The notes under the pieces were generated by a model, which saw nothing but the letters and a program-made list of their open reading frames with translations, was not told where the DNA came from and made no database searches. A stretch of DNA of 41,824 nt from a virus. Of this stretch, positions 5,635 to 36,967 are shown piece by piece. The translations under genes and the position numbers were made by a program. The first letter of the stretch is position 1; every line of letters begins with the position of its first letter. Where the stretch lies: positions 1 through 41,824 of IMG/VR virus record IMGVR_UViG_3300029955_001365; one strand, written 5' to 3'.

Positions 5635-5636
5635 AC

Positions 5637-6506: not shown

Positions 6507-6509
6507 GCC

Positions 6510-8978: not shown

Positions 8979-9009
8979 CCCACATACCAACCCAAGGAGT
9001 TTGACCATT

Positions 9010-9978: not shown

Positions 9979-9991
9979 GGGAGCAATAATC

Positions 9992-11533: not shown

Positions 11534-11534
11534 C

Positions 11535-11804: not shown

Positions 11805-11809
11805 TGCGC

Positions 11810-12427: not shown

Positions 12428-12489
12428 TCCGAACCCCTTTTAGCTGAATTTGTGAAAGCCTGTCACCCGCAGCAAAGAGAGTCAATGCT

Positions 12490-13793: not shown

Positions 13794-13812
13794 CGCGGAA
13801 CCCGTTCCGCGT
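13793..13812. promoter_or_regulatory. Perfect dyad upstream of the lysis operon
   Basis: ACGCGGAAC (13793-13801) and GTTCCGCGT (13804-13812) form a perfect 9-bp inverted repeat around CC. The 17 bases 13796-13812 recur exactly at 21647-21663. The dyad ends 57 bases before the endolysin start. It lacks a T run, so an activator-binding site (for example for the Mor-like protein) is as likely as a terminator for the early operon. Confidence 0.55.
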
Positions 13813-13868
13813 CATCCATCGCGCGCGCAAATGGCACGGTCTCTTATCATTGATGGATGGAGATCCGG

Positions 13869-14450
13869 ATGCCCACCGATTTTTCCCAACTTCCCGACGA
13901 CCCTGTTTTTAACCAGGCCCTGGCCAAGCTGTGGCCTGATGAGGGCGGCTTTGTCGATGACCCGGATGATCCGGGCGGGGCCACCAATCTCGGCATCACC
14001 CTCTATACTCTGCGGCGCGCGGGCCAGTTGGATGGGATCGACGTTGATCTCAATCATGATGGGACGGTGGATGCCCACGATATCCAGCGCCTCGACAAAG
14101 CCACCGCCGCGCTGATCTATCGCGTCGAATGGTGGGACCGTTATGGCTATGGCCATATCGGCGACCCTCTGCTGGCTATCAAAGTTTTCAACCTGGCTGT
14201 GAATGTTGGGCCGGGAACCGCTGTGCGGCTTTTTCAGCAGGCTATCAATGCCTGTGACCCGCACAACCAGATTTTGGTGGATGGGCAGCTCGGTCCCAAA
14301 ACCTTGGCCGCCGCAAACGCCGCTGATCAGCACATGCTGTTTGGTGATCTGGTCCAAGCGGCCCAGGACTATTACCGCCATCTGGTCGCTATCCGCCCCA
14401 CTCTTTCGAAGTATCTCACCGGCTGGCTAGCTCGCGCCGCCCGCGTTTGA
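13869..14450 (+). CDS. GH108-family endolysin with an EF-hand-like loop
   Basis: 193 aa muramidase of the GH108 type (N-terminal catalytic EGGFVDDPDDPGGATNLGIT, catalytic Glu25) followed by the C-terminal peptidoglycan-binding region (VDGQLGPKTLAAAN). It should degrade the cell wall at lysis. Between the two comes an EF-hand-like calcium loop, D60-x-N62-x-D64-G65-x-V67-D68-x-x-D71. There is no signal peptide, so export depends on the holin-like protein downstream. ATG 13869 has GGAG at 13859-13862 six bases upstream; an ATG at 13857 has none. First gene of the late region. Confidence 0.9.
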   Translation: MPTDFSQLPDDPVFNQALAKLWPDEGGFVDDPDDPGGATNLGITLYTLRRAGQLDGIDVDLNHDGTVDAHDIQRLDKATAALIYRVEWWDRYGYGHIGDPLLAIKVFNLAVNVGPGTAVRLFQQAINACDPHNQILVDGQLGPKTLAAANAADQHMLFGDLVQAAQDYYRHLVAIRPTLSKYLTGWLARAARV

Positions 14451-14462
14451 CGGAGTTTGATT

Positions 14463-14993
14463 ATGCAAGGTTATCGTACCCTGTTGTTGGCGGCGCTCAC
14501 TGTTGTCAGTGGCGTCCTTTTTCCTCACATCGCCCCGTCCGCGCTCGCCAATTACGCCGATGTTATTATTGCAGGGATCGGCTTGCTGTTTGGTGGGTTG
14601 CGGTTTGTCACCTCGACCCCGCTTGGAAAGCAGGTGGTCCAGCAGATCGTCCAGGCTGTCCCGGCATCCGACGAGGTCTTTCGTGAGGCCGAGTCCATCA
14701 CCTTGCCCGATTTTGGGCAGATTGCGGACAACCTGAATGCTGCTGTCGCCAAGCTGGACGGCCATCCGTTGGTCGACCCTGCGTCGCTGCAGGCCATCAC
14801 GGCCCTGGTTGCCACTGCCACGCCCATCGCGGCACCGGCTCCAGCTGACACTTCTGCGCTGGCTGACTTGGTGCCTCATGCTCAGGCTCTGATTGCCGGG
14901 CTGGCGGCCCTGGTCCCTGCGGCGGTGGCTCAGTCTCCTGCTCCTGCCGATCCGCAGCCTCAGCCGCAGCCGATCCCGGCCCCGGCAGCGTAA
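14463..14993 (+). CDS. Holin-like membrane protein
   Basis: 176 aa. Two hydrophobic segments near the N-terminus (about 6-22 and 33-49) are followed by a soluble region rich in Ala and a C-terminal tail of alternating Pro, Ala and Gln. It lies 12 bases after the endolysin, the usual holin position. Its length is unusual for a holin because of the ~120-residue tail. ATG 14463 has GGAG seven bases upstream. The role is inferred from topology and context. Confidence 0.65.
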   Translation: MQGYRTLLLAALTVVSGVLFPHIAPSALANYADVIIAGIGLLFGGLRFVTSTPLGKQVVQQIVQAVPASDEVFREAESITLPDFGQIADNLNAAVAKLDGHPLVDPASLQAITALVATATPIAAPAPADTSALADLVPHAQALIAGLAALVPAAVAQSPAPADPQPQPQPIPAPAA

Positions 14994-15199
14994 TGGCAGA
15001 CATTGGCGACCTCGCGCTAGAGGAGGAAGAATTGGCGCGGGCGGCGGCATTGCGCAGCCGCCCGCGTCCCGCCAGCGGCACCAGCGCCACACATTGCCGC
15101 GACTGTGGCGAGGCAATCGCTGAAGCGCGACGGGCGGCGGTGATCACAGAGCTTTGCGCGACCTGCGCCACCGAGCTGGAAGAATTGAGGCGACGATGA
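14993..15199 (+). CDS. TraR/DksA-family zinc-finger protein
   Basis: 68 aa. An acidic N-terminal helix (MADIGDLALEEEELARAAAL) precedes a four-cysteine zinc finger, C-x2-C-x16-C-x2-C (CRDCG ... CATC). This is the layout of phage TraR proteins, which enter the RNA polymerase secondary channel and change promoter choice without ppGpp. Here it may bias host transcription late in growth. It overlaps the holin stop by one base and the next gene by 4. Confidence 0.85.
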   Translation: MADIGDLALEEEELARAAALRSRPRPASGTSATHCRDCGEAIAEARRAAVITELCATCATELEELRRR

Positions 15200-15585
15200 A
15201 CAAAGGTGAATTGATCGAGCTGGGCCGCCTGATTTTTGAAATCATGCTGGCAGCAGGCGGCGGCCTGTTTGCGTGGGCATGGTGGTCGATCCGCCGCGAG
15301 ATGGTCACCAAGGATCATCTTGCGACCGAACTCGCACGACACGACGAGGAACATCAAATCCTGGAACGCCGACTGGCCGACGGTGATCGGCGATTTTCAG
15401 CCATCATCGCTGATATGCAATCGCTGCCGCGTCGTCAGGATCTCGATGACCTCAAAGAGCGCCTCGGTGGCGTAGAGGGATCGGTAATGGCCCTGCAAGC
15501 CACTATCGAAGGACAAAGCGAAGTTTTCCGGCGCATCGAAAATACTTTGAACATGCTGCTCGAAGATCGTCTGAAGAGGGACTGA
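15196..15585 (+). CDS. DUF2730 phage protein
   Basis: 129 aa. One transmembrane helix (about 10-30, LIFEIMLAAGGGLFAWAWW) is followed by a long coiled coil (HDEEHQILERRLADGDRRF, LDDLKERLGGVEGSVMALQ). This matches DUF2730 proteins, located between lysis and packaging genes in Mu-like phages (Mu gp25 position). A spanin or lysis accessory role has been suggested by position only. Confidence 0.75.
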   Translation: MNKGELIELGRLIFEIMLAAGGGLFAWAWWSIRREMVTKDHLATELARHDEEHQILERRLADGDRRFSAIIADMQSLPRRQDLDDLKERLGGVEGSVMALQATIEGQSEVFRRIENTLNMLLEDRLKRD

Positions 15586-15587
15586 AG

Positions 15588-15884
15588 ATGACGTTTACAG
15601 ATGATTTCATTGGCTCGCGTCGCCTCTTTATTTTGCGCCTGCTGTCTGAGCGGGACGGCGAGATTATCGAGAGCCTGATTTTTAAAGGAGCGTTGCGTGG
15701 TTTTCACAGTGGCACCAGCCGGGACGATATCCGCGCTGATCTGGACCACCTGAAGTCCCAACGCTTGACCGAAGAGACCTGGCACGAAGGCGTCTGCCTT
15801 GTCCGCCTAACGGATCGCGGCGACGATGCAGCCTATGGCCGCGTCCAGGTCGCAGGTGTTGAGCATAGCCGCTGGCGGAAATAA
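15588..15884 (+). CDS. Winged-helix phage protein (Mu gp26 position)
   Basis: 98 aa. It reads like a short winged helix: RRLFILRLLSERDGEIIESL, a DIRADLDHLKSQRLTEE recognition region, then a LVRLTDRGDDAA wing. It corresponds in place and style to Mu gp26 and the VpaChn25_0724 phage family. Its role is unknown; it may be regulatory. Two bases separate it from the DUF2730 gene. Confidence 0.7.
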   Translation: MTFTDDFIGSRRLFILRLLSERDGEIIESLIFKGALRGFHSGTSRDDIRADLDHLKSQRLTEETWHEGVCLVRLTDRGDDAAYGRVQVAGVEHSRWRK

Positions 15885-15888
15885 CACC

Positions 15889-16449
15889 ATGCCGCGCCCG
15901 TCCAAAATCGACCGCCTGCCGCCCGAAACGCAAGAGCTGATCAGCAGACTGCGTCGGGAGGGCCGAACCATTGACGAGATCCTGGCCAAGCTACGCGAGT
16001 TGCTGCCCGCCGCCGATCTGCCCAGCCGCACTGGATTGGGCAAGCGCGTCAAAAAGATCGAGGCTCTGTCGGATCGTATCCGCACGGCAGACGCTATCGC
16101 CGACCGTCTTGTCGGCGTGATGGGCGAAGGCTCCGAAGACAAGCTGCTGAGGGCCAATGCCCGACTGTTGGGCAGCGCGCTGTTTGACCTCTTGGCCGGG
16201 GCCGATGATGGCGAGACGGTGGTGCTGGAGCCTAAGGACGCCAAAGCTCTGTCCGAAACCCTGCGTAATCTGTCGACCACGCAGAAAAACAGCGTTGAGT
16301 TTACAATCAAACTGGAGCAGGAAGCCGACCGTAAAGCCAAGACGGCTGCCGTAAAGGCCGCCGAAACTGTAGGCCGTGAAAAAGGCCTGTCGGTGGACAC
16401 GATCAACGCTATTAAGGCTCAAATCCTGGGCGTCAGGACGGCAAGCTGA
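15889..16449 (+). CDS. DUF3486 protein, putative small terminase subunit (Mu gp27)
   Basis: 186 aa. The start MPRPSKIDRLPPETQELISR followed by RREGRTIDEILAKLREL is characteristic of DUF3486 (Mu gp27). The N-terminal part resembles a helix-turn-helix, fitting recognition of phage DNA for packaging. The C-terminal part is a long helix (STTQKNSVEFTIKLEQEADR). It overlaps the large terminase by one base. ATG 15889 lies four bases after the previous stop. Confidence 0.88.
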   Translation: MPRPSKIDRLPPETQELISRLRREGRTIDEILAKLRELLPAADLPSRTGLGKRVKKIEALSDRIRTADAIADRLVGVMGEGSEDKLLRANARLLGSALFDLLAGADDGETVVLEPKDAKALSETLRNLSTTQKNSVEFTIKLEQEADRKAKTAAVKAAETVGREKGLSVDTINAIKAQILGVRTAS

Positions 16450-18098
16450 TGGCGCTCATTACCAAGGAAGATTGGGCCGCGCATCGTCAAGCCAGTTGCC
16501 AATCTTTGCCCGGCTGGCTGACCTCTGGCGAAATTGAACCCAGCGATCTGCCTGCTGTCTTGCTGAGTTATCAACAAAAGCTGTTGCAGACGACGGCGGT
16601 CAATCGAGTGACCTTTGTCGAGAAGTCACGACGCACCGGTTATACCTGGGCAGTGGCTGCTGATGCTGTATTGACTTCGGCTGCGTCAAAGTCTGCGCGC
16701 GGCATGGATACCCTCTACATCGGGTACAACCTCGATATGGCCAGAGAATTTATTGATACATGCGGCATGTGGGCCAAAGCCTTCAACCAAGTCTCCAGCG
16801 AAGTCCAAGAATTTGTCTTCAAAGACAAAACCTCTGAAGGTGACAGGGATATTCAGGCATTCAGGATCATTTTTGCTTCCGGCTTCGAGATTGTCGCCCT
16901 GGCCTCTCGACCGCGATCTTTGCGCGGACGTCAAGGCTATGTGATTATCGACGAAGCCGCTTTCCATGATGATTTGTCTGAATTGTTGAAAGCCGCACTC
17001 GCTCTGTTGATCTGGGGCGGCAAAGTCTTGGTCATCAGCACTCACGACGGTGATGCCAATCCATTCAACCAGGAAATTCAGGAAATCAAAAAGGGTCGCA
17101 AGCCCTACGCCCTGATCACTCTGGATTTTGATCAGGCACTGCATGACAGTCTCTATCAACGGATCTGTCTGGTGAGCGGTGAAACTTGGTCCTATGAGGC
17201 AGAGGCAGCTTGGCGCGATGACATCATCGCTTTTTACGGCAGCGCAGCCGATGAAGAACTGTATGTGATCCCGTCCAACGGGTCAGGCACCTATATCCCC
17301 TCCATCCTGATCGAGCAGGCCATGCGGCGCGATATCCCTGTGATCCGATGGTCGCAGGATGAGTCATTTCTGCGTCTGGCGGATCATCTTCGCGAAAAGA
17401 TTTGCGCTGACTGGATTGACGCAAATCTCGCACCGCTCATGAGCCGTCTCGACCCCAAGCTACGCTCTGTTCTGGGCGAGGATTTTGCCATGAGCGGTGA
17501 TTTGACGGTGTTCTGGCCCGCTCAGGTACAAAGTAATCTGGTGTTGCGCGCTGCCTTTGTCGTCGAGCTACGCCAAATGCCCTATGCCCAACAACGTCAG
17601 ATCCTCTGGTACATCCTCTCAGGCCTGCCCCGCTTTTCTGGTGCCGCGTTGGATGCCACCGGCAATGGCGCGCCGTTGGCGCAAGAAACTGCTACAAAGT
17701 TTGGACTGGACCTTATCCAGCAAATCAAGATCAACGAGAGCTGGTATCGAGAAACCGGCTTGACCTTCAAAACGGCATTTGAAGACGGTTTGATAGAGAT
17801 GCCGCAAGACGACGATCTCTTCATGGATCACAGAGCGATCAAGTTGTTGCGTGGCGTGGCACACGTCCAGCGCACCACTCAATCGTCCGGCAAGGGCGAA
17901 GATGCCGCTAAGGGCAAGTCAGGCAGCAAGCGTCATGGCGACGGTGCGATTGCTCAATGGATGGCTCATGTAGCCAGCCGTATGGCCTATGGCGGCCCCA
18001 TCGACGTGCAAACCATCGGACGGCCCAGCGTCGCATCAGGCTTGGGCGATTATTATGGATCACCGAGAGGCGGTCGTCGTGACATGCAAGGATATTGA
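16449..18098 (+). CDS. Terminase large subunit (Mu gp28)
   Basis: 549 aa ATP-driven DNA packaging motor with nuclease. The ATPase has a Walker A-like VEKSRRTGYTW (K59) and a Walker B YVIIDEAAFH (D168, E169), with a motor-coupling segment VISTHDGDANPF. The nuclease half shows acidic residues at the usual places: E344/D345 in GEDFAMSGD, D402 in ALDATGNG and D498 in HGDGAIA. Length and motifs match Mu gp28, which packages by headful with flanking host DNA. Confidence 0.93.
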   Translation: MALITKEDWAAHRQASCQSLPGWLTSGEIEPSDLPAVLLSYQQKLLQTTAVNRVTFVEKSRRTGYTWAVAADAVLTSAASKSARGMDTLYIGYNLDMAREFIDTCGMWAKAFNQVSSEVQEFVFKDKTSEGDRDIQAFRIIFASGFEIVALASRPRSLRGRQGYVIIDEAAFHDDLSELLKAALALLIWGGKVLVISTHDGDANPFNQEIQEIKKGRKPYALITLDFDQALHDSLYQRICLVSGETWSYEAEAAWRDDIIAFYGSAADEELYVIPSNGSGTYIPSILIEQAMRRDIPVIRWSQDESFLRLADHLREKICADWIDANLAPLMSRLDPKLRSVLGEDFAMSGDLTVFWPAQVQSNLVLRAAFVVELRQMPYAQQRQILWYILSGLPRFSGAALDATGNGAPLAQETATKFGLDLIQQIKINESWYRETGLTFKTAFEDGLIEMPQDDDLFMDHRAIKLLRGVAHVQRTTQSSGKGEDAAKGKSGSKRHGDGAIAQWMAHVASRMAYGGPIDVQTIGRPSVASGLGDYYGSPRGGRRDMQGY

Positions 18099-18100
18099 CC

Positions 18101-19579
18101 ATGACTGACCTGACTAAAGGCCTCTCGCCCGACATGCGTCAAGAGATCGCGACGATCCAGCGCGATCCCTGGTCTTTGTCTGCCCGGCTTAAATGGCTGC
18201 TTAATGAAGACCCAACGCTGCTCACGCGCGGCGGGTCAAAGGGGTTGAGGATTTACGATGAGTTGGAGCGCGACGCCCGCGTCTATGCGACCTTGCGCAA
18301 GCGCAAGCAGGCATTGCTAGCCTTCCCGTACCAGATTGACCCAGCCAGCGATTCGCCGGCCGATCAGGCCGCCGCTGAATTGGTGACCCAGCAACTGGCC
18401 TCGATGAATTTCCGCGAGACCTGCCTCGACCTGCAAGATGCGGTTCTGAAGGGTTTCGCTATTTCCGAAATCCTCTGGGAATTGGTTGATGGTCGCCCAG
18501 TGATCCGTCAGAGCCTGGCCCGTGATCAGCGGCGGTTTGTGTTCGGTCAGGGCCGGGAATTGCGGATGCGCGACTGGACGAATATGTGGGACGGCCACGA
18601 GATGCCCGCTCGAAAATTTATCGTCCATCGTGTGGGTGGCAAAGATGGCTCGCCCTATGGCCACGGTCTGGGCTCTATCCTGTTCTGGCTGGTTTTATTC
18701 AAACGTCAAGGTCTAACTTTTTGGCTGACGTTTTTAGACAAATTCGGCAGCCCGACGGCAGTTGGTAAATATCCAATTGGCGTTGACGAGGAAGGGCAGC
18801 AAAAGTTGCTCAACAGTCTTTTTGCCATTGCTCAAGATGCCGGGATCATCATCCCGAATAACGTTGAAATTGAGTTGCTGGAAGCCCAGCGGCCTGGCTC
18901 CGTCGATGCTTACGAGCGACTGGCCCGCTATATCGATGAAGAGATTACCCTAGCTGTCCTGGGCGAGACCCTCTCGACGAGCCTGGGCGATGTGGGGTCG
19001 CAGGCCGCGACCTCAGTGCATGATGGTGTGCGCCTCGAACTCGTCCAGGGCGACGGCGAGCTGCTGGCCGCGACCCTCAATGACACGCTGATCCGCTGGA
19101 TCGTCGAGGCAAATCTTCCCAACGCCCAGCCGCCGAAAATAAAATTCCTCGTTGATCAGGAAGAGGATCTGACCAAGCGGGCGCAACGCGATCAAATCGT
19201 TCAGCAGATGGGCTTTAAGCCGACGCTGGAATATATCCAGGAGACCTATGGCGGCGATTGGACCGAGCCGCCCCCCGTCGCAGCCCCCGAAGCGCCACCC
19301 GCCAATCCGGCCTTTGCTGAGCCGAACACGGCGGCCCGCGACGCATCGACCGTCGACACTCTGGTCGGTCAAGCCGCCGATCTGCTCGACCCAATCACCT
19401 CGGCGGCTATTGACGCCGTGCAACAGGCCTTGGCCGACAGCGATAGCTTGGGGGATTTTCAAACGCGTCTGGCCGGTCTCGCCGCCACCTTCCAGGCCGA
19501 TAAATTTGCGGCCATCATGGAGCAGGCCCTCAGCGCCAGCCACCTCGCTGGTCGGGCCGATGTGGATCGCGGCCAATGA
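18101..19579 (+). CDS. Portal protein, DUF935 (Mu gp29)
   Basis: 492 aa. Forms the ring at the capsid vertex through which DNA passes. Recognisable DUF935 stretches are TRGGSKGLRIYDELERDARVY (first part of the domain), the FAISEILWE segment, and ERLARYIDEEITLAVLGETLS. The C-terminus becomes Pro/Ala rich and then helical. ATG 18101 has AAGGA at 18088-18092, eight bases away; a TTG at 18095 is less likely. It overlaps the next gene by 4 bases. Confidence 0.9.
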   Translation: MTDLTKGLSPDMRQEIATIQRDPWSLSARLKWLLNEDPTLLTRGGSKGLRIYDELERDARVYATLRKRKQALLAFPYQIDPASDSPADQAAAELVTQQLASMNFRETCLDLQDAVLKGFAISEILWELVDGRPVIRQSLARDQRRFVFGQGRELRMRDWTNMWDGHEMPARKFIVHRVGGKDGSPYGHGLGSILFWLVLFKRQGLTFWLTFLDKFGSPTAVGKYPIGVDEEGQQKLLNSLFAIAQDAGIIIPNNVEIELLEAQRPGSVDAYERLARYIDEEITLAVLGETLSTSLGDVGSQAATSVHDGVRLELVQGDGELLAATLNDTLIRWIVEANLPNAQPPKIKFLVDQEEDLTKRAQRDQIVQQMGFKPTLEYIQETYGGDWTEPPPVAAPEAPPANPAFAEPNTAARDASTVDTLVGQAADLLDPITSAAIDAVQQALADSDSLGDFQTRLAGLAATFQADKFAAIMEQALSASHLAGRADVDRGQ

Positions 19580-20832
19580 GTCCCAACGCGCCGCCCGAGT
19601 CCCTACCGTTCGAGCAGGCCATTCAGTTTTTCAGGGCTAAGCTGCGACTGCAACAATCAGCCAAATGGGCCGACATGCTGCATGAGCAGCACACCAATGC
19701 CTTCACCGTAGCTGGAGCGGAATCAGACGCCATTCTGAACAGCTTTTACCAAGCGACCGAAACGGCAATCAGCCAGGGTACAACACTTGATGATTTCAGA
19801 GCCGACTTTGACCAGATTGTAAAGGCCAACGGCTGGAGCCATAATGGCAGCCGGAATTGGCGCTCGCGGGTCATCTATCAGACTAATCTCAGCACAGCCT
19901 ATGCCGCCGGTCGTTATGCGCAAATGACCGATCCCGAGGTCAAACGCGCACGGCCCTATTGGCAATATGTCCATGATGATTCCGTTGATCATCCTCGCCT
20001 GGACCATCTGCGCTGGGACGGCCTCACTCTGGAGGCTGATGATCCTTGGTGGGATACCCACTATCCACCGAACGGCTGGGGCTGCTGCTGCACGGTCAAG
20101 ACCCTCAGTAGCCGCCAGTTGGCTGCGTTGGGCAAAAGCGGGCCGGACAAAGCGCCGCCGCTCGAAATGGAGTTAAAGCCGCTCAACACGTCCAAAGGCC
20201 GAATCGAGATCGAGGTGCCGAAGGGCATTGATCCAGGCTGGGGCTATCGGCCAGGAGCCGGGGCAGAAATTCCTATTCCCAACGCCATCAGCGCACCAAC
20301 CATCGGCCCCAGTGGACGTGCGCCGCTCACCTCCGGCGACTGGCAAAGTTGGGGCCGACCAGAGATTATACCGCCCGACCCTCTGCCTACCGCACTCGGC
20401 CCTCATATTACCGACGAAGCTGTGCTGCGCGATAAATTGGCCGAAATGCTTGGGGGGGTGTCGGGGGTCTTTACGCTCCCGACTCATCGCGGCGTCGTGG
20501 TCAGCGCAAAAGACTTAGCCTATCACCTCCTCGGAAGGCCTGGACGCAGCGATTACCATCCAGAGCGCACCGCTTATATCCCGCTGATCCCGGAATTGCT
20601 GCGTGATCCCTATGAAATCTGGGCGGCATACGAGGAATTCACCGATGGCACCATTCATCTGCGCCAGAGAATTTTCCGGGTTTTCGATACAACCAAATAC
20701 GGACGCATGATGATGATTTTTGAAGCGGAGAAAGGCCTATTTGTCGACGTGACGTTTGTGACCTTCAAAAAGGACAAGGACATCAACAAAGCGCGCAAGG
20801 GCGCACTGATCTACGCAAGGCCGGGAACGTGA
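19576..20832 (+). CDS. F: Mu F-like minor head protein fused to a PBECR-type nuclease-fold domain
   Basis: 418 aa. Residues ~30-190 are the phage Mu F domain, with the signature HDDSVDHPRLDHLRWDG, DPWWDTHYPPNGWGCCCTV. Residues ~275-410 form a second domain (DEAVLRDKLAEMLGG, YHPERTAYIPLIPELLRDP, TIHLRQRIFRVFD, GLFVDVTFVTF) that resembles PBECR2, a family grouped with Barnase/EndoU/ColicinE5-D/RelE nuclease folds. The head domain helps morphogenesis and portal-capsid assembly; the extra domain might be ejected with DNA or process RNA, which is inference. The start overlaps the portal gene by 4 bases. Confidence 0.88.
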   Translation: MSPNAPPESLPFEQAIQFFRAKLRLQQSAKWADMLHEQHTNAFTVAGAESDAILNSFYQATETAISQGTTLDDFRADFDQIVKANGWSHNGSRNWRSRVIYQTNLSTAYAAGRYAQMTDPEVKRARPYWQYVHDDSVDHPRLDHLRWDGLTLEADDPWWDTHYPPNGWGCCCTVKTLSSRQLAALGKSGPDKAPPLEMELKPLNTSKGRIEIEVPKGIDPGWGYRPGAGAEIPIPNAISAPTIGPSGRAPLTSGDWQSWGRPEIIPPDPLPTALGPHITDEAVLRDKLAEMLGGVSGVFTLPTHRGVVVSAKDLAYHLLGRPGRSDYHPERTAYIPLIPELLRDPYEIWAAYEEFTDGTIHLRQRIFRVFDTTKYGRMMMIFEAEKGLFVDVTFVTFKKDKDINKARKGALIYARPGT

Positions 20833-20929
20833 GGGGAGAGGCTGGGTCGCGATCTCGCCGTGCCCAACGGCCCAGCACCAGTATGGGATGCGGATATCCA
20901 CTGGATCGGGTTGCAGGGGCAATATTATC

Positions 20930-21451
20930 ATGACCGGCGTACAGATTACAGCCACGATCAACGACACAGCCCTGCGTGCCGCCCTTACGCGCCTGGTCAA
21001 CGTCGATGGCGGCCTGGTCAGAGCCGCCCTCAAGAACATCGGCACGGAAATGGTCGAGCAGACCCGCGATAATTTCCGCGCGCAGCAAGACCCGGACGGC
21101 CATCCCTGGAAGGCCCTGAACCCTGACTACGCCGCGACCAAAAAAGGATCGATGATCCTTCAGGGCATGGGGATGGCGGGCGGGCTGATGGGTTCCATCA
21201 ATTGGCAATTGGCCGGGTCGGATGGGGTGGCGATAGGCACCAATAAGGTCTATGGCGCGATCCATCAGCTTGGCGGGCGGATCGTCCCGCAAAGTGCCGG
21301 TGCGTTACGGTTTAGGCTCGGCGACAAAGTCGTGGTGGCCAAGGCCGTGACGATTCCGGCGCGACCTTATTTGGGCGTAGGCAGAGTGGCCCTTGCCGCC
21401 TTGCTGGACGTCATCGAGGATCATATCCAGCGGGTGTGGGAGCGGACGTAG
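20930..21451 (+). CDS. G: Virion morphogenesis protein (Mu gpG)
   Basis: 173 aa from ATG 20930, with AGGGG at 20915-20919. The family signature is NIGTEMVEQTRDNFRAQQDP, then GHPWKALNPDYAATKK, then HQLGGRIVP and a final IPARPYLGVG. In Mu, G acts in tail completion or head-tail joining. It is the last gene before the central 268-base gap. The 97 bases before it carry no gene. Confidence 0.9.
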   Translation: MTGVQITATINDTALRAALTRLVNVDGGLVRAALKNIGTEMVEQTRDNFRAQQDPDGHPWKALNPDYAATKKGSMILQGMGMAGGLMGSINWQLAGSDGVAIGTNKVYGAIHQLGGRIVPQSAGALRFRLGDKVVVAKAVTIPARPYLGVGRVALAALLDVIEDHIQRVWERT

Positions 21452-21719
21452 CTGGATTGGCTTTTAAGAGACCGTTAAGAGCCGTTAAGATCCCTTTGCG
21501 CGCCTGTTATGGCGGTCCCGCGACAAACTCCCTCTTAGAGTGGCTAAAGCGGCAGTAGAGCGAGAAATCCAATCCATCCGTCTGGACGTGATTACTCTCC
21601 TGCTGTAGCTCTATAAGTTCTCCCTCCCTGCCGTCACCCCATAACACGGAACCCGTTCCGCGTTATGGCCTCGCCCCTCAATCGCTAGGGTCCCACCATC
21701 TTCAGCGGATGGGTTGACC
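21452..21719. other. Central intergenic region, candidate gyrase-site equivalent and late promoter
   Basis: 268 bases between G and the protease gene, at about 48% of the prophage length. In Mu the strong gyrase site lies between G and I at the centre. Contents: a tandem 10-mer ACCGTTAAGA/GCCGTTAAGA at 21471-21490; CCGTTAAGAGCC at 21472-21483, shared with the right-end palindrome; and a near-perfect dyad at 21639-21668 (14-bp arms, one mismatch) whose 17-base core repeats that at 13796-13812. The dyad ends 52 bases before the protease start. I see no ORF worth calling. Confidence 0.55.
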
Positions 21720-22802
21720 ATGACCATGGCCGAGATTGAGATTTTTAAGACGGGCACGCACCGCGATATGGCGGGGGTCGAGCGGACCTTTGACGGGGCG
21801 CAACTGGCGGCCTCCGCCGCCGCCTATGATCCCGCGATTCACGACGCCCCCGCCTGCGTCGGCCATCCGAAGCTGGATGGCCCGGCCTATGGTTGGACCA
21901 AGGGGCTGCGGTATGCGGACGGCAAGCTGCTGGCCGACCTGCACGAGGTCGACCCGGAATTCGCCGAACTGGTGCGGGCCAAGCGCTACAAGCATGTCAG
22001 CGCGGCCTTCTATGCGCCCGACAGCCCGGCCAATCCGGTGCCCGGCACATTATATTTGCGTCATATCGGTTTTCTCGGAGCCACCCCGCCCGCCATCAAA
22101 GGGCTGAAGCCGGTGGAATTCGGCGCAGACGACGCGGGTGTCCTGCAATTCGCGGACTGGGACCAGCTGAGCATTGCCTCCATTTTTTCCGGCTTGCGAG
22201 ATTACCTGATTGAGAAAGAGGGGCTGGACAAGGCCGATCAACTGATCCCGGCCTGGACCCTGCAAAGCCTGCAGCTTTCGGCGGCGCAGCCCGATCCTGA
22301 CAAGGATGGCGATGTTGACCCGTCCCCCGCCTTTACCGAGCCGCCGGAATTGGTTGCCGCACGCGCGGCCATCGAGAAGGAAAAGGCCAAGCTGGCCGCT
22401 GCCCAGGCGGCCTTCGCGGAATCTCAGCGGGCTGGCCAGCGCGCAGCTGACAAGGCTGCTGTTGATGCGCTGATTGCGAAAGGAAAGATCCTGCCCGCAC
22501 ACCAGCAGAATCTGCTGACCTTCATGGAAAGCTTGAGCAGCGATGCGCTGACCTTTGGCGAAGGTCAGGCCCAGCCGCCCCGCGCCTTTCTGCTGGAGCT
22601 GCTGGGAGCCAAGGCTGCCGAGCTGACTTTTGGTGAGATTGCGTCATCCCGCGATTCGCAGCCCGCCGCCGCTGCCTATCGGCCCCCGCATGGGTATGCG
22701 GTCGATCCTGACCGCGCAGCCCTGCATGCGCAGGCCCTGGCTTATGCCGAGGATAAATCTGTCAGCTACATCGAGGCCCTGAAGGCCGTGGAGGAAAAGT
22801 AA
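21720..22802 (+). CDS. I: Prohead protease/scaffold (Mu gpI/Z)
   Basis: About 360 aa. The N-terminal ~170 residues match the Mu I protease: GHPKLDGPAYGWTKGLRY, KRYKHVSAAFYAP and YLRHIGFLGATPPAIKGL. The Ser/His catalytic residues are probably in GHP and VSAAFY by analogy; I cannot prove this. The C-terminal half is a charged coiled coil (EKEKAKLAAAQAAFAESQ), the scaffold part, which Mu makes separately as Z by internal start. ATG 21720 has no strong ribosome binding site; ATG 21726 is an alternative. It leads the capsid operon. Confidence 0.9.
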   Translation: MTMAEIEIFKTGTHRDMAGVERTFDGAQLAASAAAYDPAIHDAPACVGHPKLDGPAYGWTKGLRYADGKLLADLHEVDPEFAELVRAKRYKHVSAAFYAPDSPANPVPGTLYLRHIGFLGATPPAIKGLKPVEFGADDAGVLQFADWDQLSIASIFSGLRDYLIEKEGLDKADQLIPAWTLQSLQLSAAQPDPDKDGDVDPSPAFTEPPELVAARAAIEKEKAKLAAAQAAFAESQRAGQRAADKAAVDALIAKGKILPAHQQNLLTFMESLSSDALTFGEGQAQPPRAFLLELLGAKAAELTFGEIASSRDSQPAAAAYRPPHGYAVDPDRAALHAQALAYAEDKSVSYIEALKAVEEK

Positions 22803-23215
22803 TGTCGAAACTCGGCAATAGTCTGCTCTCATTGGGGGCAGCCGCAACCGGCACGGTCACCGAACGGCGCTTTGTCGGCTTTGATGATCTGCAAGCGAGT
22901 GTGCAGGGTCAGAAGATCAAAGGGATCTCTGAATATGCCGCCGTCGCTGGCGATCAATTTGTTGTCACCGCCAAAGGCACCGCATTCGTCGAGACCGGCG
23001 GCATCATTAGTGTCGGCGATCCGATCATCTCGGACAGTCAGGGCCGGGCCATTACCGGTTCCACCATTGCCATTGGCGCTGGGGCGACGGCGGTCACCAG
23101 CAGCGCGGCGGCTGGGGCCATCCTGACCGGCAGTCAAACGCCCGACTATCGGGTGGGCTATGCCCTCGAAGCCGCCAGTGCCGCCGGACAATTTATCGAA
23201 ATTCTGATCGGTTAA
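22802..23215 (+). CDS. DUF2190 capsid decoration-like protein
   Basis: 137 aa, beta-rich and Gly/Ala rich. DUF2190 features include RFVGFDDLQAS, ISEYAAVAGDQFVVTAKGTA, GDPIISDSQGRA and the C-terminal YRVGYALEAASAAGQFIEI. Such proteins decorate or stabilise the capsid. It sits between the protease and major capsid genes as in many Mu-like phages. Start overlaps the protease stop by one base. Confidence 0.85.
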   Translation: MSKLGNSLLSLGAAATGTVTERRFVGFDDLQASVQGQKIKGISEYAAVAGDQFVVTAKGTAFVETGGIISVGDPIISDSQGRAITGSTIAIGAGATAVTSSAAAGAILTGSQTPDYRVGYALEAASAAGQFIEILIG

Positions 23216-23224
23216 GGAGCCACT

Positions 23225-24175
23225 ATGACTCAGGTCACGCAAACTGCCCCCATGAATGCCGGTCAGATCAGGGTCATTGATCCGATTCTATCCAATATCG
23301 CCCTCGGTTATTCCGACATGGATTTTATCGGGGATGCGGTTGTGCCGCGCGTTCCTGTTAATGCCATGGGCGGCCAAATTCTCCAGTTTGGTAAAGAGAG
23401 CTTCATGGCCAGCCACCGCCGCCGCTCACCGGGCGGGCGGATGCATCGGATGGATATCGGCTTTCTGGGCAAGCACTATTCGCTGGTGCAAGATGGAATC
23501 GAAGGCAAGGTGCCATTCGAATGGCTTCGCGATGCGCAAAACGTCCCCGGCATCGACCTCGGCACCCGCGCGCTGAATGCTGTCATGCGGGTGATCACCC
23601 TCGGGCTTGAGATCGACCGCGCATCCCTGGTGACCAATCCCGCCAATTTCAGCGCGGGTAGCACGGTCACATTAACCGGCACCAGCAAATGGTCCGATGG
23701 CATTAATTCCAGCCCGGTGACAGATGTTGATTTGGGCCGCGAGACCATCCGCTCTCTGACCGGCACCTATCCCAATACGTTGACCCTCGGCCCGCGCGTT
23801 TTTAACGCGCTGAAAAATCACAGCAAGATCAAGGATCAGTTTAAATATTCAAGCGCTGATAGTCTGACGACTGACATGCTGGCTCGCTATTTTACCATTG
23901 ATCGTGTCCTGGTTGGTCGAGCCGTGCAGTCTGACGACAGCGGAACTATGACAGATGTCTGGGGCAATTACGCTCTGCTGTCCTATTCTCCCCTAACGCC
24001 CAGCGGCATCGAACAGCCCGCCTTTGCCTACACTTACACCATGGAAGGGCATCCGCTGGTCGAGCAGCCCTATTTCGAGCGCGATATCCGCTCGTGGCTG
24101 TATCCCACCGTGATGGAGCGCCAGCCGGTGATTACTTGTGCCGACGCTGGTTATCTCATTCAGGGGCCGGTGTGA
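23225..24175 (+). CDS. T: Major capsid protein (Mu gpT position)
   Basis: 316 aa, the main shell protein. It contains DPILSNIALGYSDMDFIGDA near the start, then KYSSADSLTTDMLARYF and VWGNYALLSYSPLTPSGIEQ, a pattern known from major capsid proteins of Mu-like phages of alphaproteobacteria. It starts nine bases after the DUF2190 stop with AAGGAG upstream. The sequence is not close to Mu T itself, so the fold (HK97 type) is inferred from position and length. Confidence 0.85.
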   Translation: MTQVTQTAPMNAGQIRVIDPILSNIALGYSDMDFIGDAVVPRVPVNAMGGQILQFGKESFMASHRRRSPGGRMHRMDIGFLGKHYSLVQDGIEGKVPFEWLRDAQNVPGIDLGTRALNAVMRVITLGLEIDRASLVTNPANFSAGSTVTLTGTSKWSDGINSSPVTDVDLGRETIRSLTGTYPNTLTLGPRVFNALKNHSKIKDQFKYSSADSLTTDMLARYFTIDRVLVGRAVQSDDSGTMTDVWGNYALLSYSPLTPSGIEQPAFAYTYTMEGHPLVEQPYFERDIRSWLYPTVMERQPVITCADAGYLIQGPV

Positions 24176-24177
24176 TC

Positions 24178-24378
24178 ATGGCGAAATCTCCTGAGCTCTC
24201 ATCTTCCGCCGCGCCCGCCACTCAGCGCTATCGCTTCGTCAAAACCATCTCTCATGATGGGATCTATTATCACGTCGACGCCTTCGCCGATCTGACCGCC
24301 GAACAGGCGGATGCGCTGGCCGATATTGACGCGATTACGCTGCACCTCGAAATCTCCGAACCTCAGGCGGGTGCGTGA
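24178..24378 (+). CDS. Small head-region protein, unknown
   Basis: 66 aa. The middle FVKTISHDGIYYHVDAFADL and a short acidic helix (TAEQADALADIDAI) are visible. AGGGG lies 11 bases upstream of ATG 24178. It occupies the place of Mu gp35, a small protein after the capsid. No family recognised with certainty. Confidence 0.6.
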   Translation: MAKSPELSSSAAPATQRYRFVKTISHDGIYYHVDAFADLTAEQADALADIDAITLHLEISEPQAGA

Positions 24379-24836
24379 TGTATGCCACCGTGGCTGATTT
24401 ATTGGCGCGCTTTGGCACCAAGTTGGTCACCGATCTGACCGACCGTGACAATAGCGGCAGCCTGGATGAGACGGTCGCCGCTCAGGCGCTGGTTGATGCC
24501 AGTGCCATGATCGATGGCTATCTCGCCAGCCGCTATGCCCTGCCGATCAGTCCGATCCCGGCCATGCTGCCCCGCATCTGCTGCGATCTGGCCGCGTACA
24601 TCCTCTGCACCGGCGATATCCGGCCTACCGACGATATGCGGAAACGGCATGAGGATGGGTTGGCCTGGCTTAACCAGGTCAATAGGGGGCAGCTTGATCT
24701 GGGTCTGACACCGACCGGCACCGCGCCCCCCGAAACTGGAGGCCCAGCGGGAGTGAGCTTCAAATCGCGTCAGCCGCGCGTGTTTGATTCTGAGAGCCTC
24801 AGTGACTACGGATTTCGCCGGGGATGGCCGCGATGA
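24378..24836 (+). CDS. DUF1320 head-tail connector (Mu gp36)
   Basis: 152 aa. DUF1320 is recognised by MYATVADLLARFGTKLV, the helix with ASAMIDGYLASRYALPI, and LPRICCDLAAYILCT. Members join head to tail. The start shares its first base with the previous stop. The C-terminus (SFKSRQPRVFDSESLSDYGF) is a typical family ending. Confidence 0.9.
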   Translation: MYATVADLLARFGTKLVTDLTDRDNSGSLDETVAAQALVDASAMIDGYLASRYALPISPIPAMLPRICCDLAAYILCTGDIRPTDDMRKRHEDGLAWLNQVNRGQLDLGLTPTGTAPPETGGPAGVSFKSRQPRVFDSESLSDYGFRRGWPR

Positions 24837-25414
24837 TCGCAGCAACCCTCACTGCCATGCAAACCCGCCTGTCGGCTCTGCTCCCTGCGGTCATCCCGGT
24901 CAGCATCCTCGCGAGTTCGTCCGATTTCGGGACTCAAATCCAGGAGCGGGTCAGGAAGACCTCTGCCGTGATGCTGGCGTTCATGGGCGGCACGCGGATG
25001 GATGATGATCGCGCGCGCATTGATGCTGAGTTCATCGCGTTGGTCGTCGTCTCTTCCGTTTCCTTAGTCAAGCGCGCCGATGGTCCGCTCGGCATGGCGC
25101 ATCTGGTCGAGCTGGTGGGGGCAGCGCTGCATGGGTTGCTCATTCCCGAGGCAGGCAGCCTGACCCTGGCCAATGTCGCCAATCTTTGGGCCGACGATCT
25201 GGATAAACAAGGCCTCAGCCTGTTCGCTCTGACCTTCCGCGCCCCGCTGCCGTTGGTCCTGGCCGATGACCCTACCATCAATCTGGCTGCGCTGGTGACG
25301 GTCCATAGCGACTGGATCATCGACGATGCGACACCCGTACCGCCCGCCGCCGCACTGCCCCTGGCCGATTCTGTCGGCTCGATTACCGTCACTTTGCCGC
25401 AGGAGGTACCATGA
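24833..25414 (+). CDS. DUF1834 tail-terminator-like protein (Mu gp37)
   Basis: 193 aa from ATG 24833 (ATGA overlap with the previous stop); ATG 24824 is an alternative. Recognisable DUF1834 features are the RTSA-type strand VRKTSAVMLAFMGG, FIALVVVSSVSL and the C-terminal FALTFRAPLPL. It follows gp36 as in Mu. Role by family: completion of the tail end that joins the head. Confidence 0.85.
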   Translation: MIAATLTAMQTRLSALLPAVIPVSILASSSDFGTQIQERVRKTSAVMLAFMGGTRMDDDRARIDAEFIALVVVSSVSLVKRADGPLGMAHLVELVGAALHGLLIPEAGSLTLANVANLWADDLDKQGLSLFALTFRAPLPLVLADDPTINLAALVTVHSDWIIDDATPVPPAAALPLADSVGSITVTLPQEVP

Positions 25415-25635
25415 AAGTCATTGTCGCGCCGGGTCGTCGGGTCCGTCATCCCGATACTGCGATCCCCATCACCGGCGAGATCGATGTTGATCCCAATGAA
25501 ACCCATTGGTGGCGGCTGCTGTCGGACGGAGACCTCGTGGAGGTGGTCGAAGCGGCAGGCCTGACCGTCACTCAACATGAAGCCAGTCCCGCCGAGCCCG
25601 CTACCGCTCTGAGCGAGGAGCATGACCATGAGTAA
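25411..25635 (+). CDS. DUF2635 phage protein (Mu gp38)
   Basis: 74 aa. MKVIVAPGRRVRHPDT and THWWRLLSDGDLVEV are diagnostic of DUF2635. AGGAGG precedes the ATG. Small protein between the tail terminator and the sheath in Mu-like phages; function unknown. Its last codons overlap the sheath start. Confidence 0.85.
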   Translation: MKVIVAPGRRVRHPDTAIPITGEIDVDPNETHWWRLLSDGDLVEVVEAAGLTVTQHEASPAEPATALSEEHDHE

Positions 25636-27109
25636 CATCGCCGTCAGCGTCAGTTTTAACGACATCCCGCCGTCTCTTCGGGTGCCCGGCGCTTACCTTG
25701 AGATCGATAATTCGGGGGCGCTGCAGGGCCTGCCGGTCATTTGGTATAAGCTGCTGGTCATCGGTCAGAAATTGCCTGCGGGCGGCCAGCCTGCCGCAAC
25801 GCCGCTGCTGATTACTGGCGGAAAGGCGCAGGCCGATGCGGCCTTTGGCCAGGGCTCCATGCTGTCGTTGATGGTGCAAGCGGCGCGCAAGGCCAACGAT
25901 TACACCGAGATGTGGGCTATCGCCCTCGACGATAATTCCGCCGGTGCTGCCGCCACGGGCTCGGTTGCTTTGGCAGGGACTGCCACCGCCGCCGGAACCT
26001 ATCAGCTTTATGTCGGCGGCGTGCCCATCCAGGTTGCCGTGACGGTGGGTATGACCGGCACTGCACTCGCCACTGCTCTCGCCGCCGCCATCGCTGCTAA
26101 TGCCGACCTGCCGGTTACCGCCTCGACCGCCATTGGCACTGTCACCCTGACCGCGCGTCACAAAGGGGTCGAGGCCGGGCAGATCGATCTGCGCAATCTC
26201 TATTACCAGGGCGATGCGATTCCGGCGGGTATCACCTCGACCATCACCCAGATGAGCGGCGGCTCGGCCAACCCGCTGCTGGCCAGCGTCATCAATGCCA
26301 TGGGCGATGATCCCTATCACGCCATCATCCTGCCCTATAACGACACGGCCAGCGTTACGGCCCTGAACACCGAATTGACCCGTCGGTTTAGCGGGTTGGT
26401 GCAAAAGGACAGTCATGCCTATGGCTGGGTGCCCGGCACAGTCGGCACGTTGGCTTCTTGGGGCACCACTCAAGACAGCCCGCATCTCTCAGTGCTGGGG
26501 GCCAGCAATCTGCCGACGCCCGGCTTCGTGGCGGCGGCTGTGTACGGTGCGGTTGCTGCCTATTATTTGTCCGATGATCCGGCCCGCCCGCTACGGACCC
26601 TCGCGCTTCCCGGCCTGCTGGCCCCGGCTCCGGCGGATCGGTTTTCTTGGACCAACCGCAATCTTCTTCTTCACGACGGCATCGGCACCTTTGTCGTCGA
26701 TCCTGACGGCACCATGCGCATCGAGCGAAGCATCACGACGTACCAGCTGAATGGTGCCGGGGCACAGGACGCCAGCTACCTGCAAACCGAAACCATGGCC
26801 ACCATCGCCTATGTGCGGTTTTCCTGGGTCAACCGGATGCTGATCCGCTTCCCTCGGTACAAGTTGGCCGACGATGCTCCGACCCCGCCGCCGCCGAATA
26901 CCGTGACCCCCCGCGTGGTGGCAGCCGAGCAGCTGGCTTGGTTCGTGGAGATGGTCGATGCCGGGATCTGCGAGGACGTGGCTCAATTCAAGGCCACTCA
27001 GATTGTGGTGCGTAACCGTAACGACAACACCCGCATCGACTCGATTGTGCCCGCTCATCTCGTCAGCGGCCTGCAGGTGATCGCGGGCAAGCTTAGATTC
27101 CTTCTCTAA
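25628..27109 (+). CDS. L: Contractile tail sheath protein (Mu gpL)
   Basis: 493 aa. Forms the sheath around the tail tube. Family marks: FNDIPPSLRVPGAYLEIDNS near the start, LLVIGQKL, AAKA-type stretch TGGKAQADAAFGQGSMLS, the middle YHAIILPYNDTASVTALN, and RALPGL-like LRTLALPGLLAP. ATG 25628 is preferred because GAGGAG (25615-25620) is seven bases away; ATG 25622 is only one base away. Its neighbour is the tube protein. Confidence 0.94.
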   Translation: MSNIAVSVSFNDIPPSLRVPGAYLEIDNSGALQGLPVIWYKLLVIGQKLPAGGQPAATPLLITGGKAQADAAFGQGSMLSLMVQAARKANDYTEMWAIALDDNSAGAAATGSVALAGTATAAGTYQLYVGGVPIQVAVTVGMTGTALATALAAAIAANADLPVTASTAIGTVTLTARHKGVEAGQIDLRNLYYQGDAIPAGITSTITQMSGGSANPLLASVINAMGDDPYHAIILPYNDTASVTALNTELTRRFSGLVQKDSHAYGWVPGTVGTLASWGTTQDSPHLSVLGASNLPTPGFVAAAVYGAVAAYYLSDDPARPLRTLALPGLLAPAPADRFSWTNRNLLLHDGIGTFVVDPDGTMRIERSITTYQLNGAGAQDASYLQTETMATIAYVRFSWVNRMLIRFPRYKLADDAPTPPPPNTVTPRVVAAEQLAWFVEMVDAGICEDVAQFKATQIVVRNRNDNTRIDSIVPAHLVSGLQVIAGKLRFLL

Positions 27110-27121
27110 CGGAGAGAGACT

Positions 27122-27490
27122 ATGGCATCGGCCAATCAACGCACAGGTCGCGTCTATCTAACCATTAATGGCACCTATTACGAATCCGACGGGGGAGCCA
27201 AACTCAGCAACGCCAACGCAATGACCCGCGAAGACGTCATTGGCGATCAAATCCATGGATTCAAAGAGGTTCTCAAGGCCCCAACCCTTGAATGCTCACT
27301 GATTCATGGTGGCGATTTGGATGTGTTAGCCGTGGGCGACATCGTCGACGGCACGGTCATCTTCCGGACTGACACTGATATCTCCTACACTTTGTCGAAT
27401 TGCTGGGTCTCTGAGCTTAAAGACTTGGACGGCAAAGAAGGAAAGCTTGGGGTCACGATAAAATCCAAGCTGCCTGCCCAATCGAGCTGA
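27122..27490 (+). CDS. M: Tail tube protein (Mu gpM)
   Basis: 122 aa, right length for gpM. Contains RVYLTINGTYYESDGGAKLS, REDVIGDQIHGFKE and a C-terminal KEGKLGVTIKSKLPAQSS. Polymerises inside the sheath. The 38 bases after its stop include a small hairpin (GGCT/AGCC near 27500-27512) followed by TTTT, which could partly end transcription and keep tube mRNA high. Confidence 0.9.
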   Translation: MASANQRTGRVYLTINGTYYESDGGAKLSNANAMTREDVIGDQIHGFKEVLKAPTLECSLIHGGDLDVLAVGDIVDGTVIFRTDTDISYTLSNCWVSELKDLDGKEGKLGVTIKSKLPAQSS

Positions 27491-27528
27491 CTTTAAACCG
27501 GCTTTAAAAGCCTTTTGACGGAGCGATC

Positions 27529-27816
27529 ATGCCCACCATTGAAATTCATAAGGACGGCTCGAAGACCGTCCACCTCGACTATCCCCTCGAAAAAGGGCCG
27601 GAGGGCAACAAGCTGGCCTCGGTGACCTTTCGCCGGATCAAAGGCAAAGATCTTCGCGTCATGGCCGAGCGCAATCACAATCTGTTCTGGCTGATCAGCC
27701 AACTGTCTGGTGTCGCTGGCCCGTTTATCGACGAGTTGGATGGCGAGGATATAGCCATGATTCAAGATGTGGTGAACGGTTTTTTGAAGTCTGGCCAAGC
27801 AACTGGCGAGGCCTGA
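27529..27816 (+). CDS. Tail assembly chaperone, short form (Mu gp41)
   Basis: 95 aa. LEKGPEGNKLASVTFRRIKG and LRVMAERNHNLFWLISQLSG identify the Mu gp41/tail assembly chaperone group. In long-tailed phages this protein and a frameshifted longer form guide tube assembly around the tape measure. The slippery site TTTTTTG is at 27780-27786. A second frame continues past the stop to 27935 and lies directly before the tape measure gene. Confidence 0.88.
   Translation: MPTIEIHKDGSKTVHLDYPLEKGPEGNKLASVTFRRIKGKDLRVMAERNHNLFWLISQLSGVAGPFIDELDGEDIAMIQDVVNGFLKSGQATGEA
27780..27786 (+). other. -1 ribosomal frameshift heptamer T TTT TTG
   Basis: In the chaperone frame the codons are GGT TTT TTG, so the bases 27780-27786 form a X XXY YYZ heptamer (T TTT TTG). 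A -1 slip leads into an open frame of 49 codons that ends at 27935. The frame change is the expected one for tail assembly chaperones. Confidence 0.8.
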
Positions 27817-27935
27817 TCGCTGATCTCCTGGCCGTTCTTGGTGGCGGCCTGGATTGGCTGGATATGAATAAGGACGAACTGATGCGCTGGCACGAAGAGG
27901 CCTGCCGCATCCGGAATGCAAAGGGAGGAAGTTGA
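27786..27935 (+). CDS. Frameshifted C-terminal extension of the tail assembly chaperone
   Basis: Read in the -1 frame after the slip: 49 codons and a TGA at 27933-27935. The encoded segment (GLIADLLAVLGGGLDWLDM, then MRWHEEACR) looks like real protein and lacks a convincing start of its own before the overlap. The fused product would be 135 aa. The stop shares its last base with the tape measure start. The extension is presumed to contact the tape measure protein. Confidence 0.75.
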   Translation, partial: EVWPSNWRGLIADLLAVLGGGLDWLDMNKDELMRWHEEACRIRNAKGGS

Positions 27936-30340
27936 TGGCTGGCAATATGACTTTCTCTCTTTTGTTCAAGGCGCGCGATGAAGCCTCGGCTGTCGTCCAG
28001 CGCCTGATCTCAAACCTTGCCGCCCCTGCCCATGCAGCCCTCCAAACGGCCCGCGCCACCGGCATGGCGGCGCAACAATTTGCGCAGAGCTTCGCGGGCA
28101 TTGGCTCAATGGTAGCGGGTGGCTTTGCGATGCGCGATGTCATCAAGGCCAATGACGGTTTTACCCGCCTCGCCATCACCAGCGGCATGAGTGCCGATCA
28201 GGTCAGTCATCTGCGCGATACCTTTCACGACACCGCCATCGCCGCGCGCGTGTCTGGCGCAGATATGGCTGCCGCTTTTCAGGGGATGCGGTCGCACGGC
28301 GGCTCAATCCAACTATTTGAGGACAATGCCAACACCATCGGAGCTGCCATCCAGTTGATGGGGGGCCATGCTGACGAGCTTGGGGCCATGATGGCCTCGG
28401 CTAACAAGCATATGCAGCTCTCCAGCGGCCCGCAGTTGCTGCAATTTCTGGCTACGGCGCGTCAGCAGTTGAAGGGTGTGGATGGCGGATTTGAGGCCTT
28501 TGCCGAACATAGCCAGGCGCTGATGTCGAGCTATGCCGAGCAAGGCCATACGGGCGAAAAAGCGGCGCGGGAAGTTTCCGGAATCTATGCCCTGACGGCC
28601 ATGGGCACCGCCTCGCCCATGCGCGCCGCCCGCACGGTCGATGGCCTGATTCAATCCTTGGCCGATCCCGCCGCCCGCAATCATCTGCAAAGCATGGGCA
28701 TCAAGGTCTTCAACACCGATGCCAATGGCAACCAGGATCGCCGCCTCGGGACGCGCGGCATCTCGGATATCATGCAGCAAATGGCAGCCGGTCTGGCCGA
28801 TAGCAAATCTCAATTCATGTTCGAGGATCAGCTCGGCCCTGAAATGAAGGCCGCTCTCAAGATCGCTATCGCTGAGATCAAAGCGGACAAAGCATCTGGC
28901 GGCATTGGCCGATCTCAGACCCTGGAAAAGATGGTCAATGACCAGGGGGATGCCAGCAAATTCACGGCTGATGCCGAGAAAATGAAGCAGACATTCAGCG
29001 GCTCCATGAATGCGCTGAATGGGTCGGTCAGTAAATTTGCAGATGCGCATTTGGCTGGGCCGGTTCAGGCGCTAGCCAACGGTATGGCGACCCTCGAAGG
29101 GCCTCTCGGCACCGTTGTCGTCAGTTTGGCCGGGCTGGTCGCCGTTGGCAATGCTCTCGGCTGGATCATGAGCGCCGTGGCGGCCTTCAAAGCCTTTGGG
29201 GCAGCGCTGGGGGTCTTGCGACTGGGCAGCGTTGTGACCTCTCTCATCGGCCTCGCTCGCGTAGGCGTGATCGTGGGTGGCTTGCGTTTCGGCGGCATGG
29301 TCATGAGTCTGGTTGAGGGTGCCGGGGCCTGCTTGGCCCTGGTCCGAGGTATTCGGGTCGCGACGGCGGCCATGTGGCTCTTTGATATCGCCGCCAATGC
29401 CAATCCGATTGGCCTCGTTGTCCTCGGCGCAGCGGCGCTTGCCGCCAGCGCCTTTGTCGTGTGGGACAATTGGAAAGAACTGGTGGCGTGGTTCGAGGAC
29501 AAACTGACTAAGCTGCGTCAGATGTTTCAGGATCTCGCCGACACGATTAAAAACTCTGGCGTTGGCAGGTTCTTCGGGGCCGGGGGGCCTCCCTCAGCAG
29601 CGGGCACTGCGCGATGGGCCAAAGTCACGGCCCTGGGTGGCCCGTTGATTGATGCAGGCCATCGCTCGCCGCGCCAGGGCCCAGCCGCCTCAGAGCCGGT
29701 GGGGATTCGCAACAACAATCCTTTGAATTTGCGGTCATGGCAAGGGGCCGAGACCAAGGATGGTTTTGCCGCCTTCGCCAGCCCAGAAGAGGGGATTTCC
29801 AAGGCCGTCAAGAACCTCCAGAATTACGACAGGCGCGGCGATGATACGGTCGAGCGCATTATCGCCAAATGGGCACCGGCCAATGAAAACAACACCAAAG
29901 CCTATACGGAGACCGTCTCCAAAGGCATGGGTGTCAAGCCGGGAGATCATCTGGATCTGCAAGATCCCGGTACGCTGTCAAAGCTCCTCTCGAACATGAT
30001 CAAGGTCGAGGATGGCAAGCAACCCTATAGCACTGAGGCGTTGGCTAAGGGTATCGCCATGGGCCTCGCGGAACAGCCAGGCCCGCCGCCGGTCGAAAAA
30101 GTGGCGGCGGGACTGGCAAAGCAGGAACCGGCGCACCAAACTGCGCAGGCGACATCGGTGGGCGACGCCAACGACGCCATGCCCGCCACACGTCAGGCCC
30201 CAGCTGCCCAGCGGCTGGAAGGCACGATCACTGTCATGATTCAAGGCCTGCCCAAAGAGGCGACAGCCACGGTCAAATCTAATCAGCCCGGTCTCGGGGT
30301 CGCACTGGATCGCGGGCCGCTGATGGCTGCGGGAGGCTGA
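27935..30340 (+). CDS. Tape measure protein with embedded peptidoglycan hydrolase
   Basis: 801 aa. Sets tail length and is ejected ahead of DNA. The N-terminal ~370 residues are helical, from MAGNMTFSLLFKARDEASAV onward. Several hydrophobic stretches follow (about 390-510). At ~587-715 there is a lytic domain, with GIRNNNPLNLRSWQG, FAAFASPEEGISKAVKNL, ERIIAKWAPANENNTKAY and KQPYSTEALAKGIAMG, close in pattern to the P5-type muramidase of phage particles. It would help the DNA cross the cell wall. ATG 27935 overlaps the frameshifted stop. Confidence 0.9.
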   Translation: MAGNMTFSLLFKARDEASAVVQRLISNLAAPAHAALQTARATGMAAQQFAQSFAGIGSMVAGGFAMRDVIKANDGFTRLAITSGMSADQVSHLRDTFHDTAIAARVSGADMAAAFQGMRSHGGSIQLFEDNANTIGAAIQLMGGHADELGAMMASANKHMQLSSGPQLLQFLATARQQLKGVDGGFEAFAEHSQALMSSYAEQGHTGEKAAREVSGIYALTAMGTASPMRAARTVDGLIQSLADPAARNHLQSMGIKVFNTDANGNQDRRLGTRGISDIMQQMAAGLADSKSQFMFEDQLGPEMKAALKIAIAEIKADKASGGIGRSQTLEKMVNDQGDASKFTADAEKMKQTFSGSMNALNGSVSKFADAHLAGPVQALANGMATLEGPLGTVVVSLAGLVAVGNALGWIMSAVAAFKAFGAALGVLRLGSVVTSLIGLARVGVIVGGLRFGGMVMSLVEGAGACLALVRGIRVATAAMWLFDIAANANPIGLVVLGAAALAASAFVVWDNWKELVAWFEDKLTKLRQMFQDLADTIKNSGVGRFFGAGGPPSAAGTARWAKVTALGGPLIDAGHRSPRQGPAASEPVGIRNNNPLNLRSWQGAETKDGFAAFASPEEGISKAVKNLQNYDRRGDDTVERIIAKWAPANENNTKAYTETVSKGMGVKPGDHLDLQDPGTLSKLLSNMIKVEDGKQPYSTEALAKGIAMGLAEQPGPPPVEKVAAGLAKQEPAHQTAQATSVGDANDAMPATRQAPAAQRLEGTITVMIQGLPKEATATVKSNQPGLGVALDRGPLMAAGG

Positions 30341-30341
30341 G

Positions 30342-33485: not shown

Positions 33486-33487
33486 TC

Positions 33488-36958: not shown

Positions 36959-36967
36959 GGAGTAACC

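Follow-up and report, generated by a model that had tools for sequence, protein, structure and literature searches.

The question raised by this locus is what occupies the long non-coding gap between genes G and I of a Mu-like prophage, and whether it includes an equivalent of the strong gyrase site (SGS) of phage Mu, as an earlier note on this DNA had proposed. The window, that is, the whole stretch of DNA analysed, is 41,824 nucleotides long, and the prophage within it (Table 1) accounts for 35.9 kb, bounded by a 5-bp ACCAG target duplication at 4247-4251 and 40158-40162. MuA-site-like repeats (TGGTTYTG) are found in forward orientation at 4265 and 4413 and in reverse orientation at 40143 and 40121, the latter two being 22 bp apart. 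The insertion has split a chemotaxis-receptor-like gene into an N-terminal part (1531-4251) and a C-terminal part that resumes at 40158. After the lysozyme gene the order along the window is terminase, portal, F, G and I. A ParB-like gene (5631-6506; phrog_3264, E 1e-56) lies between the early regulator and MuA, and the F homologue (19576-20832) ends in a PBECR2 nuclease-like domain of the Barnase/EndoU/ColicinE5/RelE type (E 6.8e-17), possibly a toxin domain on a virion protein. No tRNA was detected within the window.

The premises on which a gyrase site had been suggested were borne out. In the list of open reading frames no other late-gene junction equals the G-I gap in size, the phased repeat that it contains is located at 48.0% of the prophage (48% had been estimated for the gap), and family matches identify the neighbouring genes as G and I, the two that flank the SGS in Mu. 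The tandem CCGTTAAGA and the large dyad described inside the gap are both real. The gap measures 262-268 bp, since I may start at TTG 21714 instead of ATG 21720. The proposal itself survived for the left part of the gap, where comparison with other phages supports a phased TTAA array as the gyrase-site equivalent; it did not survive for the dyad, which has a twin at the C stop codon and is likely to be an operator of the late activator C. On sequence comparison, we consider the gap probably to be a composite of two elements, a candidate gyrase site and a late-promoter operator, as in Mu, and its size would be accounted for because the two functions share it. Both elements appear to be of already known kinds, but the repeat turns out to be common at the same place across many Mu-like phages. 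A structured RNA in the gap was also considered and is disfavoured, since the gap folds with only mild stability (z -1.9). No RNA families were found within the window.

Table 1. Positions of the prophage, its relevant genes and the elements of the G-I gap in the window.
Feature	Position	Strand	Assignment or basis
Mu-like prophage, end to end	4252..40157	+	ACCAG target duplication, TG...CA ends, MuA-like sites
MuA	6968-8947
MuB	9001-9978
Mor/C-family late transcription activator (C)	13335..13793 (start codon inferred)	+	phrog_836, E 5.8e-12
Twin dyad at the C stop codon, before lys	13788..13817		predicted operator of Plys
Lysozyme (lys)	from 13857		directly behind the C gene
Gene G (virion morphogenesis; Phage_tail_S)	20888..21451	+	PF05069, phrog_26
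G-I intergenic gap	21452..21719		G stop 21451, I ATG 21720
Phased array TTTTAAGAGACCGTTAAGAGCCGTTAAGATCC	21462..21494	+	TTAA at 21464, 21475, 21485; candidate gyrase wrap arm (SGS equivalent)
Dyad CCATAACACGGAAC-CC-GTTCCGCGTTATGG	21639..21668		predicted C-activator operator of late promoter P_I
Gene I (head maturation protease)	21720..22802	+	phrog_976, E 4e-111

The dyad before I consists of 14-bp arms that are 93% complementary and separated by a spacer of 2 bp. Its core recurs once in the window, behind the C gene, with 92% identity over 25 bp, and no match of that quality is expected in shuffles; the earlier note, which was correct as to the presence of the first dyad, had overlooked this near-identical second one. 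The relationship between the two places was examined in 38 Mu-like phages having both genes by matching dyads in the region behind C to those in the region before I, with a threshold score of 18. The best match scored at least 18 in 23 of the 38, compared with 31 of 1406 comparisons in which the C and I regions came from different phages, and none of 10000 permutations reached the observed sum. The dyads themselves differ from phage to phage. In a Fulvimarina prophage both places carry a dyad of quite another sequence, and yet other dyads occur in Thalassospira, Rhodospirillales and uncultivated phages; Rhodovulum RS1 shows no such pair. Since the dyads vary between phages and yet stay in step at the two sites, as expected of an activator and its sites, it is almost certain from this pattern that the dyad before I is the C operator of late promoter P_I and is an element apart from the gyrase site. 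The phage's own C/Mor-family activator would bind this operator and switch on P_I, leading to expression of gene I and the genes behind it, with the twin operator before lys serving Plys; binding of C to both dyads is thus a prediction. The arrangement resembles that of Plys, P_I and activator C in Mu, with a C-family gene directly before lys and an operator both at the C stop codon and before I, but the operator found here has no sequence relationship to the Mu one and forms a stronger, near-perfect palindrome. In Mu, C is required at lys, I, P and mom (PMC4461284); no further operator copy for P or mom was found within the window. A sigma-70-like promoter was not found at P_I, which weighs against this assignment, though the late promoters of Mu are non-consensus too (PMC4461284).

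The left part of the gap is occupied by the array, in which the three TTAA steps occur one per helical turn. CCGTTAAGA is present at 21472-21480 and 21482-21490, with a period of 10 bp, and a third copy of the core, TTTTAAGAG, is found at 21462. Within the window this is the sole series of three consecutive TTAA at a spacing of 10-12 bp. A 12-mer of the array, CCGTTAAGAGCC, is also present in both arms of a perfect 21-bp inverted repeat near the right end of the prophage (40061-40104, 53-96 bp inside the end; -34 kcal/mol, z -8), which is not followed by a T run. This right-end palindrome with CCGTTAAGAGCC, sought as a shared control element, was absent from seven related records and from IMG/VR.

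The SGS of Mu is similarly placed, between G and I, near the centre and beside P_I, and the Mu gap likewise holds both functions, the gyrase cut at 17879/17880 and P_I at 17977-18043. From the cut, TTAA steps follow rightward at 17895, 17916 and 17928 in the right arm. Their phasing of 0, 21 and 33 may be compared with 0, 11 and 21 here; the motif also differs between the two, TTAAGA rather than TTTAAAC, and the array of this prophage, unlike the Mu SGS, starts approximately 12 bp after the G stop codon. The Mu site is known to assist synapsis of the prophage ends and to be most effective at a central position (PMC10052514, PMC3820752). When natural sites were tried as replacements for it, just one of them worked, and it came from a closely related prophage (PMC10052514). 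Cryo-EM of gyrase on Mu SGS DNA has shown that the right arm wraps the GyrA C-terminal domain with the AT repeats facing the protein (PMC11626157), and the cleavage sites of E. coli gyrase have a GC content phased at 10.75 bp (PMC6379681).

Comparison of the gap across related prophages had been suggested as a way of finding a conserved core, and phased TTAA pairs do recur there. Related loci were gathered through a terminase search of viral contigs; a search of viral contigs with peptide patterns of the I protein had retrieved none. Across 44 gaps (known duplicates excluded), 16 TTAA pairs were found at 10-12 bp compared with 0.36 expected in dinucleotide shuffles, and phased pairs were approximately 50-fold denser in the gap (1.05 per kb) than in the remainder of these loci (0.02 per kb), both figures being partly descriptive because the motif was picked after the gaps had been read. 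Pairs at spacings of 20-24, 33 and 43-44 bp were also counted in the same 44 gaps. The experimentally defined SGS of Mu is among the gaps with phased pairs. With TTYRAA allowed and Mu excluded, 21 of 42 central gaps contained a pair, compared with 3 of 50 ORF-free stretches elsewhere (p = 2e-6); a clear pair is therefore missing from half of the related gaps. Examples from the same gap are CTTAAACGCGAATTAAACCGATTTAAACGGG (L070), TTTTTAAGAGCCGTTTAAAACAGTTTAAGACGG (L077) and TTTTTAAACGGGTTTTAAATGG (L085). In AT-richer phages, TTAA pairs are found elsewhere in the genome too. In AF083977.1 (Mu), HQ316581.1 and MZ568828.1, each genome has 10-12 pairs at 10-12 bp, whereas the reversed pattern, AATT, used as a control, gives 0-1; there may thus be a genome-wide enrichment of phased TTAA in these three phages.

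The array was also present in a separate collection fetched later, in Vibrio martha 12B12, vB-Vv-ZX4290, Shewanella MuM16-2, Chromohalobacter YPCBV-1 and D108, the last being a close relative of Mu. Pseudomonas phage Ab30 has a weaker form, TTAACCCCGTTAGAACCCCGTTAGA, and in the same collection a clear array was not seen in Pseudomonas CF78a and Fc22, Stenotrophomonas phiSHP3, Rhodobacter RC1 or Rhodovulum RS1; in RC1 and RS1 the region from G to I is longer and contains extra genes. In eight phages (seven records, of which that of YPCBV-1 is partial, and this prophage) the array lies between 48.0 and 52.8% of the length. For Ab30 an SGS has been proposed right after G, at 18736-18772, from a lack of insertions (PMC5977238), so that there, as here, the candidate is a non-coding stretch in the centre of a Mu-like phage. 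The phased TTAA/TTAG/TTAG of Ab30 (L097) is just upstream of I at approximately 19632-19658 and not in that proposed gap.

Since the array keeps its form from host to host and the phage-specific operator next to it does not, it would be expected to have a host partner that is itself conserved; the obvious choice, by inference, is gyrase. We therefore regard the array as a likely, though still candidate, equivalent of the central gyrase site. Weighing against this reading, crude AT periodicity, as a rough view of the fit to the 130-bp gyrase cleavage motif, is high in the gap but does not set it apart within the window; clear pairs are missing from half of the related gaps and, in AT-richer phages, also occur outside them; and just the one natural replacement for the Mu SGS worked. 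Gyrase is predicted to bind it, and the supercoiling introduced from the left part of the gap would help bring the prophage ends together for replicative transposition; the array would then be needed for replication.

An alternative is that the whole gap is a late-promoter region and that the array assists P_I, whether as curved DNA, as a UP-type element or by binding a host nucleoid protein. This would fit with the array being upstream of the operator in every case read and with the bending of DNA expected from phased AT tracts. However, the distance between array and operator ranges from 72 to 177 bp, which is too far and too variable for a UP element, and in Mu the corresponding element is a gyrase site defined by experiment (PMC10052514), which makes a promoter element unlikely. 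It is also conceivable that the array terminates transcription of the lys-to-G operon, since TTTAAA-like units can pair, GGCTTTTAA and TTAAGAGCC can form a stem, and the Mu gap has a predicted terminator, but no T run follows the array on the + strand, direct-repeat matches outnumber inverted ones in the flanks of paired sites (17 against 5), and the distance from the upstream stop codon varies widely, so that a terminator is very improbable. The direct orientation of the copies and the variable distances on both sides of the array thus argue against either function. That the phased TTAA arose here by chance is hardly credible, for although the gap's score in a crude AT-periodicity scan, while high, is reached at 14 places in the window and so is not specific, and the window has two further, isolated TTAA pairs (18189/18201 and 27493/27504), relatives show an enrichment of this signal in the corresponding gap on both of the counts given above.

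Returning to the array as a gyrase site, these comparisons bear on how general the central gyrase site of Mu is. We lean towards the view that a phased TTAA (TTYRAA) array before I is a general signature of the central gyrase site in Mu-like phages of alpha- and gammaproteobacterial hosts, next to which the C operator turns over. The signature would be conserved across hosts and separable from the adjoining promoter, providing immediate candidates for testing gyrase cleavage in other hosts, and matching dyads behind C and before I would offer a simple rule for locating the late operators of Mu-like phages. If this is true, the SGS mechanism would be ancestral to the Mu-like transposable phages and their central gyrase sites would be predictable from sequence.
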